Assembly: GCF_040438885.1 (NCBI RefSeq)
Contig: NZ_CP159218.1
Coordinates: forward strand, 1,364,001-1,428,000
Length of the DNA: 64,000 bases
Origin: Nakamurella sp. A5-74
Lineage (GTDB): Bacteria; Actinomycetota; Actinomycetes; Mycobacteriales; Nakamurellaceae
Reading direction: 5' to 3'
Under the pieces are notes generated by a model that made no database searches, was not told where the DNA came from, and saw nothing but the letters and a program-made list of their open reading frames with translations. How positions within the stretch are numbered: the stretch's first letter is position 1; each line of letters opens with the position of its first letter. Shown in pieces: positions 3,430-6,928 of this stretch. A program made the translations under genes and the position numbers.

Positions 3430-3453
3430 CCTGAGCTTCGCCTGAACCACCCG

Positions 3454-3486
3454 AAGGCCCCCGTCGACACTGTCGGCGGGGGCCTT
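3454..3486 (+). terminator. tuf terminator
   Basis: The inverted repeat starts AAGGCCCCCG and ends CGGGGGCCTT, with 15 of 16 positions pairing (one G-T) around a very short loop. It begins 24 bases after the tuf stop and closes the tuf transcript. Confidence 0.85.
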
Positions 3487-3527
3487 CCGGCATCTCGCGG
3501 GGTGGCCATGGCCTCGGTACGCGCTGT

Positions 3528-3589
3528 GCAGATCAGTTCCAGTGGTGCGCCACCTTCCCGGTCGTGGCGAACCACGAGAACTGTTCTGC
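3528..3589. repeat. 62-bp palindromic repeat, left copy (bounds AbiEi-like gene)
   Basis: The outer arms GCAGATCAGTTC and GAACTGTTCTGC pair at 11 of 12 positions. Inner arms GGTGCGCCAC and GTGGCGAACC pair at 9 of 10. A second copy at 4703-4764 matches over 50 of 62 positions in direct alignment, and 46 of 62 when inverted because the element is nearly symmetric. This copy lies 29 bases past the stop of the gene at 3619-4599. It could form a cruciform in DNA or a hairpin in RNA, and might also terminate that gene's transcript. Confidence 0.8.
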
Positions 3590-3618
3590 AGCGGGGGTTC
3601 GGGGGTCTGGAACGGGCC

Positions 3619-4599
3619 TCAGAACCGCACCGGCGGCGTCGTGCGGATCGAGCCGCGGAGGCCGAAGGCGGCCACCGGTCGCCGCCGGTTCCCACACGCT
3701 CGCAGGACGCGATCGGCGAAGGCCTGCGGCCGCGCCAGATCAGCCCAGATGACCCGGATCACCAGCCAGCCGCGCTCGGAGAGTCGTTCCTCCCTGCCCT
3801 TCTCGGCGAGGACGACGTCGCTGACGCTCTGTCCCGGACGGAGCAGCGATGTGTACTTGCTGCGGCCGTCGAACTCGAGCAGCACCCCGCACTCGGGGAT
3901 CGCACCGTCGGTCCTGCCGACGAATGTCCCGCGCTCGTCGTGGATCTCGGGCTGCAGCTCGAGATGCGGGATCTCGGGGTGCGCAAGCGCCAGACGGGTC
4001 AACGTCTCTCCCGGACTCTCGGATCTGCCGTCCGCCAGCCTGAGGGCCCTGATCGCGCTCGGTCGGCCGGCGGTCGAGGGGTGCTCAGCCAGCACACGCC
4101 GCATGGAGGGACCGTCGATGAGACCGCGCTGCAGCGCGGCGTCGGCAGCCACCACCGTCGCCTGCAGGCTGTCGGTGCGTCCCATGTCGAACAGGGTCCT
4201 GGCGACGGTGGTCAGTTGCAGCCCGCCGATCGTCATCCGGTCGTGATCGGGCAGTCGGGAAACGTGGACCTTCTTCGCGGTCGTTGTGCGACTGCCGCCC
4301 GACCCCGGCCGGGTGAAGTGCACAGCGTGCGCTGCGGTGGCCAACAGCGGGAGCCCGTGCGCGGCTGCGGCAGAGCGGTGGCTGAGCACCAGCCCAGGAG
4401 ATTGCAGGGCGGCAGCGCGGACGCGGACGACTTCGCGCGCGTTCTGGTCCAGGTCGACGAGGCGATCGGCGTCGAGGTACACACCACGCGCCATCCGGAT
4501 GCGCCGGCCGGCATGCAGATCGGCCCGGATCTCGGCGTCCGTGACGCCGGCTGCGAGCAGTGCTGCACGTGCGGACGCCTGCGGCAAGGTCTTCGACAT
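3619..4599 (-). CDS. AbiEi-antitoxin-like N-domain plus DUF559/Vsr-like nuclease-fold C-domain protein
   Basis: The 326-residue protein belongs to a large actinobacterial family usually annotated as type IV toxin-antitoxin AbiEi-family antitoxin or DUF559 protein. The N-terminal third, with RIRMARGVYL and LVLSHRSAAAAHGLPLL, matches the AbiEi-like winged-helix and adjoining region. The C-terminal part, GVLLEFDGRSKY followed by a basic segment and GWLVIRVIW, looks like the Vsr/PD-(D/E)XK-like fold, with the E-x-D-G core intact. The open frame extends upstream to 5088, but the ATG at 4599 is chosen because of homology and a -10-like hexamer six bases upstream. No AbiEii toxin partner lies beside it. 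It is flanked by the palindromes at 3528-3589 and 4703-4764. Function is unknown. Confidence 0.85.
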   Translation of the reverse strand: MSKTLPQASARAALLAAGVTDAEIRADLHAGRRIRMARGVYLDADRLVDLDQNAREVVRVRAAALQSPGLVLSHRSAAAAHGLPLLATAAHAVHFTRPGSGGSRTTTAKKVHVSRLPDHDRMTIGGLQLTTVARTLFDMGRTDSLQATVVAADAALQRGLIDGPSMRRVLAEHPSTAGRPSAIRALRLADGRSESPGETLTRLALAHPEIPHLELQPEIHDERGTFVGRTDGAIPECGVLLEFDGRSKYTSLLRPGQSVSDVVLAEKGREERLSERGWLVIRVIWADLARPQAFADRVLRACGNRRRPVAAFGLRGSIRTTPPVRF

Positions 4600-4605
4600 C
4601 GGACC

Positions 4606-4611
4606 AGGGTG
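4606..4611 (-). promoter_or_regulatory. -10 hexamer CACCCT, leaderless start of AbiEi-like gene
   Basis: On the minus strand CACCCT is followed by six bases and the ATG at 4599. This fits the recurring xAnnnT-N6-start pattern of the window. There is no Shine-Dalgarno. Confidence 0.45.
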
Positions 4612-4650
4612 ACGCCACCGGCGCTGCTGCGCACCAGCGCTCAAGGCCGG

Positions 4651-4678
4651 TGTGGACAACCCGGGCGGGTGTGGACAA
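4651..4678 (-). promoter_or_regulatory. Two perfect DnaA-box-like 9-mers upstream of AbiEi-like gene
   Basis: Read on the minus strand, TTGTCCACA occurs at 4678-4670 and again at 4659-4651, with starts 19 bases apart. This 9-mer is the DnaA-box consensus of high-GC actinobacteria. The pair lies 52-79 bases upstream of the ATG at 4599, between the gene and its right-hand palindrome. Whether DnaA binds here is inference. Confidence 0.5.
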
Positions 4679-4702
4679 CGCGTTCGCCCGGAATGTCCGT
4701 CT

Positions 4703-4764
4703 GCAGAACAGTTCTCGCGGTGCGCTACCTGCCCGGGACTAGCGGACCACGGGAACTGTTCTGC
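4703..4764. repeat. 62-bp palindromic repeat, right copy
   Basis: The outer arms GCAGAACAGTTC and GAACTGTTCTGC are perfectly complementary over 12 bp. Inner arms GGTGCGCTA and TAGCGGACC pair at 8 of 9. Compared with the copy at 3528-3589, an inner C:G pair is replaced by T:A, so pairing is preserved while the sequence changes. It lies between the AbiEi-like gene and mshA-mshB. Confidence 0.8.
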
Positions 4765-4816
4765 AGCGCGCGGAACCGTCCCGCACCGGCCGGGCAACGT
4801 GTCCGGAGCGGCGTGA

Positions 4817-4828: not shown

Positions 4829-6928
4829 GTGTCGGGTCGTGGTCGGGTCGCGTTGGTCTCCATGCACACCTCCCCGGCGGACCCGCCCGGTCGGGGTGAT
4901 GCCGGTGGGATGAACGTCCACCTCCAGGAGCTCTCGGCGGCGCTGGTCGCGCTGGGCTGGGAGGTCGACGTCCTCACCCGTCGGGTGGCAGCGGAACAGC
5001 AGGAGATCCGCGAGCTCGCCGGCGGCGCCCGGTTGATCGCGATCCCGGCCGGCCCCGCAGATCCGGTCGCCAAGACCGAACTCGCCACGCTGGTCGGTGA
5101 GTTCGCCAGTGCTGCAGGCGATCTCGCTCGGCGGCGGAGCTACGACGTCGTGCACTCCCACTACTGGCTCTCCGGCGTCGCCGGTCTTGCGATCGCCCGC
5201 GCGGCCGACGCGCCCCACGTGCTCAACCTGCACACCGTCGCCGCGATGAAGAACGCCGCCCTCGCCCCCGGTGACGCTCCCGAGCGCCCGGAGAGGCTGC
5301 GGTGGGAGGCCGATCTGGTGCGGGCCTCCGCGGTGACCGTCACGGGCACCCGCGCGGAACGCAGGACCATCGAATCCGCGTACGGAGCAGAACCGGAGCG
5401 GGTGCGGGTGATACCACCCGGCGTCGATCTGCGGGCCTTCTCGCCGCAGCGCTCAGGGGCAGTGGTGACGGAACTGGCCGCGGATCCCTCGATTCCGGCC
5501 GCCACCATCGACGTGCTGCGACGCGGTGGCCAGCTCGTCATGATCGCTCGGGTCCAGCCGCTCAAGGGACACGACATCGCAATCCGGGCTCTCGCCGCGA
5601 TCGCACCGGAGCGGCGACCGCCGCTGGTGCTGGCGGGGGACACCAGCCCGGGACACCAGGACTTCCGGGATCGGTTGCAGGCGTGGGTGATCGAGCTCGG
5701 ACTCGAGGATCTGGTGCACTTCCTGCCGGCCGTGTCCAGGCGCTCCGCTGCTGATCTGTTGGCCGGCGCAGCGGTGTTACTGGCGCCGTCACGGTCGGAG
5801 ACGTTCGGCCTGATCACCCTGGAGGCGGCAGCGAGCGGGACACCGGTGATCGCGTCCCGGGTCGACGGCCTCGCCGAAGCAGTGGCCGAGGGCCGCTCGG
5901 GTGAACTCGTCGACGGGTTCGCGCCGGCCGACTGGGCGGGGCACATCGACGGGTTGCTGTCGGACCCCTCGCGGCTGCGCGCACTCGGGGAGTCCGCGCG
6001 GGAGTACGCCCATGGTTTCGGCTGGGACCGGGTGGCCGCCGCGACGGCCGAGGTCTATCAGTCCGTCATCGCGCGTCACCCCCTGACAGTTGCTCGTGAC
6101 GGGGCGCAGCCCGACCCGACCCGCGGTCCGGCTCCTGACCCGACCTTCGGTCTGGTCGGCCGCCACGTGCTGTTCCTGCACGCGCATCCGGACGACGAGA
6201 CGATCGCCACCGGCGGGACCATTGCCCGACTGCTGGCGGCCGGAACGACCGTCAGCGTGCTGACCGCGACCCGCGGCGAGTGCGGGGAGAGCGCGCCGGG
6301 AGCGGCGCCGGAGAACGCCGGTGCCGACGCACTGGTCGTCCTGCGGCTGCGTGAACTGGCCGGGGCACTGGCGGAGCTCGGTGTGCAGCAGCACTTCTGG
6401 CTCGGCACGCGGCCGGCGCGGGCCGGCAATGATCCCGACGGCGGCGAGCGTCGGTACAGCGATTCCGGGATGCAGTGGGCCCCCGACGGATGGGCGGTGC
6501 CGGCACCGGACGTCCCCGACACCGCGCTGAGTCTGGCCGACCCCGACGAGATCACCGCCGACGTGCTGGCGTTGATCCGGGCGATCGGACCGGAGCTGGT
6601 GGTGAGCTACGACGCGCGCGGTGGCTACGGCCACCCGGACCACGTGAGCCTGCACCGGGCCGGGCGGGCGGCCGCCGCACTGGCCGGGGTCGGATTCGCG
6701 GAGTGCCTGCCCGGGCCGCCGGAGCATCGGGACGGCACGGTCGAAGACCCGTCAGACGGCACCGCCGGTGAGGTGGTCGCGGTGGATGTCCGGGCGCACC
6801 GCGCGCAGGTGGTCCGGGCGTTGCGCTGGTACCGCAGCCAGCTGATCGAGGTGGCCGACGACCACATCGTGCACGTGGGCGGGCAGCGGCAGCAGCTGCC
6901 GTCGGTGGAGTACTTCCGCATCCGGTGA
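4829..6928 (+). CDS. mshA-mshB: MshA-MshB fusion: mycothiol glycosyltransferase joined to GlcNAc-Ins deacetylase
   Basis: The single 699-residue frame joins two mycothiol enzymes. Residues 1 to about 415 are MshA, the GT-B glycosyltransferase that makes GlcNAc-inositol-phosphate. It shows the N-terminal GDAGGMNV nucleotide-sugar loop, RVQPLKGHDIAI, and the E324/E332 pair of the EX7E motif in SETFGLITLE. A proline-rich linker (about 418-443) leads to residues 445-699, MshB, the zinc deacetylase acting on GlcNAc-inositol. MshB shows HAHPDDE (H453, D455, D456) and GHPDH (H602, D604). Both domains are near normal length with active-site motifs intact. In mycobacteria and Streptomyces these are separate genes. 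The phosphatase step between them is not encoded here. The GTG start is set by homology and the -10 at 4817. It converges on gntP. Confidence 0.93.
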   Translation: MSGRGRVALVSMHTSPADPPGRGDAGGMNVHLQELSAALVALGWEVDVLTRRVAAEQQEIRELAGGARLIAIPAGPADPVAKTELATLVGEFASAAGDLARRRSYDVVHSHYWLSGVAGLAIARAADAPHVLNLHTVAAMKNAALAPGDAPERPERLRWEADLVRASAVTVTGTRAERRTIESAYGAEPERVRVIPPGVDLRAFSPQRSGAVVTELAADPSIPAATIDVLRRGGQLVMIARVQPLKGHDIAIRALAAIAPERRPPLVLAGDTSPGHQDFRDRLQAWVIELGLEDLVHFLPAVSRRSAADLLAGAAVLLAPSRSETFGLITLEAAASGTPVIASRVDGLAEAVAEGRSGELVDGFAPADWAGHIDGLLSDPSRLRALGESAREYAHGFGWDRVAAATAEVYQSVIARHPLTVARDGAQPDPTRGPAPDPTFGLVGRHVLFLHAHPDDETIATGGTIARLLAAGTTVSVLTATRGECGESAPGAAPENAGADALVVLRLRELAGALAELGVQQHFWLGTRPARAGNDPDGGERRYSDSGMQWAPDGWAVPAPDVPDTALSLADPDEITADVLALIRAIGPELVVSYDARGGYGHPDHVSLHRAGRAAAALAGVGFAECLPGPPEHRDGTVEDPSDGTAGEVVAVDVRAHRAQVVRALRWYRSQLIEVADDHIVHVGGQRQQLPSVEYFRIR

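Follow-up and report, generated by a model that had tools for sequence, protein, structure and literature searches.

A gene for a predicted nuclease-fold protein in Nakamurella sp. A5-74 lies between two palindromes, and this unit is best explained as belonging to a class of palindrome–nuclease elements that is large among actinobacteria. We consider it probable that the nuclease recognizes its own palindrome and spreads this palindrome, and sometimes also itself, by cutting and repair. The evidence counted in favor comprises the bracketing of related genes by repeats, the spacing of boxes within the palindromes, solo palindromes that accompany their cognate gene, palindrome copying in genome G012 (probably N. 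silvestris), the different states of one chromosomal site, the predicted protein fold, and published precedents for AbiEi binding to inverted repeats and for an EDxHD enzyme on a long target.

The palindrome-bracketed unit between tuf and mshA

In the window, i.e., the entire 64,000-nucleotide stretch of DNA at G000:C1:1364001-1428000 that was analyzed, a 1.24-kb unit of palindrome, gene and palindrome is situated between a terminator-like repeat of tuf and a frame that we take to be mshA, following the first-pass annotation (Table 1). The elements at 3528–3589 and 4703–4764 are identical at 50 of 62 positions, and the full left and right palindromes share 82% identity across 67 nt. When the right palindrome was searched against the whole genome, the left palindrome ranked first among the other matches (E = 1.3e-11). 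Both also matched in reversed orientation, so each copy is a palindrome in itself. The hairpin z-scores of −6.8 (left) and −8.5 (right) were equaled by none of 200 shuffles in either case. The left outer arm contains one mismatch (GCAGATCAGTTC), both flanking palindromes look complete, and the upstream one sits between divergent genes. The bracketing of the gene and the placement of the unit between the tuf terminator and mshA, both described in the first-pass annotation, are thus upheld. No partner gene was found inside the unit, and tuf and mshA are the only neighboring frames that we read as genes. The mshA frame itself encodes 699 aa and is possibly a fusion of two mycothiol genes; its second half presumably resembles an LmbE/MshB-type deacetylase, judging from a motif, and most relatives of its first half in the genus are open frames of 429–548 aa.

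Table 1 Features of the unit and its immediate neighbors in the window
Feature	Position	Strand	Size	Remark
Left palindrome	3527..3591		65 bp	Just past the stop codon of the nuclease gene
AbiEi/DUF559-type nuclease-fold gene	3619..4599	-	326 aa	
Right palindrome	4701..4766		66 bp	102 bp upstream of the nuclease gene's start codon
Terminator-like inverted repeat of tuf	3450..3490	+		Left neighbor, outside the unit
Open reading frame taken to be mshA	4829..6928	+		Right neighbor, outside the unit

As modeled, the predicted protein combines an AbiEi-like DNA-binding half with a nuclease half of the Vsr/EDxHD type. Residues 16–171 are matched by PADLOC profiles for AbiEi (E = 1.9e-16), and in the AlphaFold2 model (pLDDT 94.9) residues 4–190 match the AbiEi antitoxin (6y8q; Z 10.2, rmsd 6.1, 173 aligned). 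Residues 191–307 match the catalytic domain of I-Bth0305I (3r3p; Z 11.2, rmsd 2.4, 97 aligned), the putative endonuclease 3hrl (Z 11.4) and Vsr (Z 9.3). E194, E198, D231, E242, D244, K248, R269 and R282 are among the residues invariant in 67 aligned proteins, and the first six of these are candidates for the EDxHD residue set of the active site. Fold likeness alone does not establish nuclease activity of this half. Pfam returned no match for the window protein; among 22 family members (E up to 0.01), AbiEi_4 was found in nine and DUF559 in three. Neither the window protein nor the 22 relatives matched a transposase family in Pfam, in agreement with the lack of a transposase noted in the first-pass annotation. 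Family matches are present in 215 of 296 sampled genomes of the class and in 99 of 115 genera, many genomes having at least seven matches, and the genes are currently annotated as antitoxin-like or of unknown function.

Bracketing as a trait of the gene family

To score bracketing, the 300 bp before each gene were compared with the 300 bp after it, and a score of 30 or more was taken as a shared repeat. Such a repeat is common to both flanks at 79 of 142 distinct family loci (protein duplicates removed), and 63 loci have no pair at this cut-off. In the genus set, 21 of 41 family loci are bracketed, compared with 0 of 29 TetR loci taken from these genomes as controls and 0 of 1500 pairs of mismatched flanks; L100 (the same gene as L062) and L260 (short flank) were dropped from this set, as was one of 30 TetR loci for which no frame fitted. 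A named set from Rhodococcus, Nocardia, Pseudonocardia, Blastococcus, Tomitella, Kribbella, Propionibacteriaceae and others yielded 36 bracketed loci out of 80 vs. 0.6% of ~2000 mismatched pairs; here duplicates were kept, and at least four of the 80 loci (L141, L147, L149, L168) were already in the genus set. In a later set from the class, 25 of 28 loci are bracketed and 82 of 756 mismatched pairs also pass, a high background that probably reflects orthology among some of the loci.

The geometry of the elements was examined in a set of 39, from which protein duplicates and flank repeats longer than 130 nt were left out. Their upstream copy ends a median of 102 bp before the start codon, the downstream copy starts a median of 6 bp past the stop codon, and the best fit of the pairs is direct in 19 and inverted in 20. 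Of 114 loci, 34 have a palindrome scoring at least 14 on either side of the gene; single control windows reached this score in 6 of 178 cases. The palindrome sequence changes from gene to gene, even between two genes of one genome. Across the 39 elements, palindrome likeness did not follow protein likeness significantly (118 of 2000 permutations were as good), which disfavors a slow, smooth coevolution of palindrome and protein. Only pairs of elements with more than 60% protein identity tend to have palindromes in common (4 of 7). At three loci (L088, L063 and L077), tandem arrays of short units, exemplified by GTAGCGGGGTTGTCCCGC at L088, replace the single palindromes on both flanks. Four family genes of Geodermatophilaceae (L161, L164, L189, L209) have one downstream neighbor sequence in common, which suggests an old common site within Geodermatophilaceae.

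Many palindromes consist of four 8-bp boxes, two per arm, with a gene-specific box sequence. In 220 arm tests (protein duplicates removed), an 8-bp box was directly repeated at a distance of 19 bp in 58 and of 20 bp in 42, where 1.6 and 1.4 repeats were expected; the neighboring offsets of 17, 18 and 21 bp gave 9, 6 and 7, and farther offsets were at background. The later set behaved similarly (7 of 44 at 19 bp and 3 of 44 at 20 bp, with 0.2 expected for each). Boxes are present at 52 of 114 loci, 47 of them with a spacing of 19 or 20 bp. The outer box begins at the palindrome end (median 0), whereas a median of 8 bp separates the inner box from its mirror image. The two helical turns between like boxes suggest recognition of the DNA duplex on a single face by the proteins. 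The window palindromes are too degenerate and fail the box test, and the corresponding pair in N. lactea (L062) passes it. Neither pairing nor covariation in the palindrome family of L083, a second nuclease gene of the window's genome, went beyond shuffles (44 of 500 and 82 of 500 equaled it, respectively), and Rfam gave two matches, both far under their gathering scores. An RNA reading was rejected as the main explanation on these grounds.

Solo palindromes and their cognate genes

Palindromes resembling the flanking pair also stand alone in the genome of the cognate gene. The comparison within the genus covered 17 genomes, i.e., that of the window and 16 relatives, among which G008 is probably N. 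lactea. By DNA query and covariance model, six solos of the window gene were found in its own genome, and the 16 relatives contained no full-length DNA match to the window palindrome. Together with the bracketing of related loci and the gene-specific palindrome sequences, this search of the genome and its relatives bears out the suggestion of the first-pass annotation that the repeats belong with the gene. The second nuclease gene (L083, G000:C1:3994775-3995656) has a different palindrome, which is present as a flanking pair and at 14 solo places and in none of the 16 other genomes. G010 carries a flanking pair and four solos of its own family, with one weak match in another genome of the genus, and N. 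lactea a flanking pair, five clear solos and one weaker. For the window-gene and N. lactea families, the covariance-model search scored 150 candidates per genome.

The largest family was found in G012 (L079), with at least 40 places that are 89–95% identical to the query copy, apart from that copy itself, and none in the 16 other genomes. This count is based on scoring 40 of 266 first-look candidates, and 38 of the 40 read as solos. Their surroundings mostly differ, the exceptions being L345/L348 and L374/L375, neighboring pairs with similar flanks; a C-rich left and a G-rich right flank are common to the solos. The many near-identical copies in different surroundings indicate that the G012 palindromes were copied recently. 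Insertion into host hairpins was considered because the flanks of the solos looked complementary; it was rejected, since the complementarity of matched flanks did not exceed that of mismatched flanks (402 of 5000 permutations, 16 nt). The palindrome center (L341–L378) shows a few recurring variants, e.g., GAAACATC and GATGTTTC, which may represent center inversions or subfamilies.

By eye, no target-site duplication was recognized at the 38 G012 solos or at eight copies of the window family. Many pairs of solos resemble each other as closely as the flanking pair does in three of the four families compared, so that no single duplication event is visible. No tRNA genes were found beside the window-family solos L004–L007; one of these solos (L004:1501-1567) lies ~290 bp before a phage-integrase-type gene (L004:1853-3052). 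A viral origin was also considered and set aside, as the one pattern tried had no relative in viral contigs.

An old locus with changing palindromes

The orthologue of the window protein in N. lactea is 56% identical and occupies the same chromosomal place, in the order fusA, tuf, unit, metallo-beta-lactamase-like gene (Pfam match slightly below cut-off) and mshA, where the mshA relative beside the orthologous unit is 58% identical. Its palindromes keep the core CCAGTGGTKCGC and have different outer arms, and in both species the solos resemble the local pair. Because the orthologue is in place, the core is kept and the solos resemble the local pair, the tuf–mshA unit is maintained vertically while its palindrome family turns over. 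The presence of the unit at the identical place in N. lactea speaks against the fresh insertion suggested by the wording of the first-pass annotation. That annotation had also named a case against mobility, in which the gene would be ancestral at the locus and the repeats would vary independently; the first part of it stands, as both species carry the gene and the repeats have changed, and the second does not, as the solos track the local pair. Matches resembling mshA were found in 10 genomes. In the eight beyond the window's genome and N. lactea, tuf and the nuclease are absent from the 1.5-kb flanks, which falls short of an empty site.

Since the tuf–mshA flanks gave no empty site, occupied and unoccupied states were compared at another locus. 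A query made up of fba, the unit and a DUF3151 gene (L275 in genome G271; both gene names are our assumption from the sequence) was run over 49 genomes of another genus. The orthologous unit is present in five genomes (G271, G313, G262, G339, G317). From 43 loci in 42 genomes, the interval could be read in the 38 genomes where both ends were found. Nine of these intervals contain a nuclease of the family, four of the nine being other versions with other palindromes. Ten are at most 126 bp long, and seven of these ten contain a 46–90 bp palindrome and no gene. The remaining 19 hold other DNA and no nuclease gene of the family; these inserts measure ~0.5–3.4 kb, some with palindromes of their own (e.g., L300, L303). 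In G339 and G317 (L284, L285) the unit is flanked on each side by a further, outer palindrome; in G326 (L294) one such outer palindrome is present and the gene is absent.

Solos elsewhere in G271 are 82–100 bp long, except for one of 50 bp, and are built of an outer arm, an inner palindrome and an outer arm. In the G271 unit, each of the two copies retains only the outer arm of its own side. The unit therefore looks like a solo palindrome into which the gene and a second inner palindrome were set. Recombination between the inner copies would restore the solo palindrome, and the states of the fba–DUF3151 site fit gain of the gene as well as its loss. Among the matches listed, solos occurred in four of five carriers vs. 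two of the 44 other genomes (Fisher p = 3.4e-4; six candidate stretches scored per genome), and the fifth carrier had none.

Proposed mechanism and alternative explanations

In the proposed mechanism, the AbiEi-like half, probably dimeric or tetrameric, would bind the boxes, and the Vsr/EDxHD-type half would cut at or near the palindrome. Repair of the break could then copy the palindrome, and sometimes the whole palindrome–gene–palindrome unit, into the cut site, and recombination between the two flanking copies could remove the gene, with a solo palindrome left behind. The result would be a selfish or half-domesticated nuclease accompanied by a species-specific family of non-autonomous palindromes. 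Counted against this mechanism are the 63 of 142 loci without a pair, the background of 82 in 756 mismatched pairs in the later set, the failure of the window palindromes in the box test, the lack of an overall correspondence between palindrome and protein likeness (118 of 2000 permutations), the arms without compensatory change, the flanking pairs that show no single duplication event, the lack of a recognized target-site duplication, the fit of the fba–DUF3151 site to both gain and loss, and the one carrier there with no listed solo.

It is unlikely that the palindromes are spread in a MITE-like manner by some other enzyme, with the nuclease gene merely inserting into them or surviving beside them. 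Such a process would suit the near-equal numbers of direct (19) and inverted (20) pairs, the flanking copies, which in three of the four families look as if drawn independently from the palindromes of the genome, and the reading of the G271 unit as a gene set within a solo palindrome. It fits poorly with palindromes that are specific to the gene, even where one genome has two such genes, with solos confined to the genome of the cognate gene, with the lack of bracketing at all 29 control genes, and with the joint change of the tuf–mshA pair and the solos between two species.

A regulatory role, in which the AbiEi-like half represses its own gene and the solos are further sites of its regulon, appears decidedly unlikely as a full account. 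For AbiEi and Rv2827c, binding to inverted repeats within the promoters of their own genes is described (PMC7319586); the upstream palindrome is likewise close to the promoter, at a median of 102 bp from the start codon, and boxes two helical turns apart would suit a bound protein. Operators would leave aside the second palindrome right behind the gene (median 6 bp past the stop) and the retention of a nuclease half with invariant acidic residues, and an ordinary regulon would have fewer and less uniform sites than the 38 solos of G012, which are 89–95% identical and stand in mostly different surroundings. Autoregulation may exist alongside a nuclease that spreads its palindrome.

That the protein is a defense nuclease for which the palindromes mark self or foreign DNA is very improbable: PADLOC does class AbiEi-like proteins under defense and the second half has a Vsr-like fold, but the unit contains no partner gene, the one pattern tried had no relative in viral contigs, and the scattered copies would be left unexplained. 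Least probable of all are terminators or RNA hairpins that stand by chance on both sides of the gene, which would account for the strong hairpins and the typical terminator position of the downstream copy but not for an upstream copy between divergent genes in the window, the lack of any Rfam family at gathering score, the absent compensatory pairing signal, control genes without such pairs, or the direct box repeat at 19–20 bp.

Comparison with known systems

The proposed palindrome-spreading nuclease combines traits of several known systems. In IS200/IS605 insertion sequences, which have palindromic ends, hairpins likewise stand at both ends of a single gene; here no transposase of a known family is present, and each end is a complete palindrome that is also found alone. 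A search of the literature, within a scope that left out preprints and most subscription journals, found no description of such a system and no paper linking AbiEi/DUF559 proteins to palindromes.

With the AbiE type IV toxin–antitoxin systems the window protein shares its AbiEi-like first half (Z 10.2), and the DNA sites described for AbiEi and Rv2827c are two or four 23-bp inverted repeats (PMC7319586). Because it has no partner gene, the unit is not an AbiE operon: the AbiEii (DUF1814) toxin is missing from both the window unit and that of N. lactea, a nuclease half is added, and the palindrome recurs downstream of the gene and at dispersed places of the genome. The EDxHD homing endonucleases have the same Vsr-like catalytic fold (I-Bth0305I, Z 11.2 over 97 residues), and I-Bth0305I dimerizes on a target of nearly 60 bp (PMC3943268). 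They differ in that the putative cutter described here has an AbiEi-like DNA-binding half, is intergenic and not intronic, and is bordered by palindromes that also multiply alone. A gene interrupting a target that is intact elsewhere fits the fba–DUF3151 site, and both window palindromes look complete.

The closest likeness in arrangement is to REP/RAYT, where the RAYT gene lies between two inverted REPs, palindromes with a GTAG-type tetranucleotide head, and the number of REPs follows the gene (PMC2817692). Both systems have one gene between two palindromes along with scattered solos, copies tied to the cognate gene, and a gene kept vertically at one site (PMC2817692). The scattered palindromes described here similarly accompany their cognate gene, and the 16 other genomes yielded at most a single weak match. 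Because there is no HUH transposase and the pairs are direct as often as inverted (19 and 20 of 39), the unit is not a member of REP/RAYT. Its enzyme is an AbiEi plus Vsr/EDxHD nuclease in place of an HUH (Y1) tyrosine transposase, its palindromes are 60–80 bp long with boxes 19–20 bp apart, and its hosts are actinobacteria.

We tentatively propose a separate class of actinobacterial mobile elements, in which an AbiEi–EDxHD nuclease would home between copies of its own four-box palindrome. This palindrome would act as border, target, homology arm and independently multiplying satellite, and would be repeatedly re-invented together with the binding half, giving rise to private families in each species. 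If the family members are palindrome-spreading nucleases, a single account would cover both a large gene family that has lacked an explanation and an extensive class of intergenic repeats that has gone unnoticed. REP/RAYT raised the question of how bacterial genomes come to keep and multiply short palindromes, and this would be a second solution of independent evolutionary origin. The architecture is strong and repeated, and the mechanism is inferred. As the flanks of each gene display its probable target, they offer naturally diversified proteins with long matching DNA sites, and target recognition is directly testable for this reason. The class would be new in that enzyme, repeat grammar and hosts differ from REP/RAYT; grouped by arrangement, it would join REP/RAYT.
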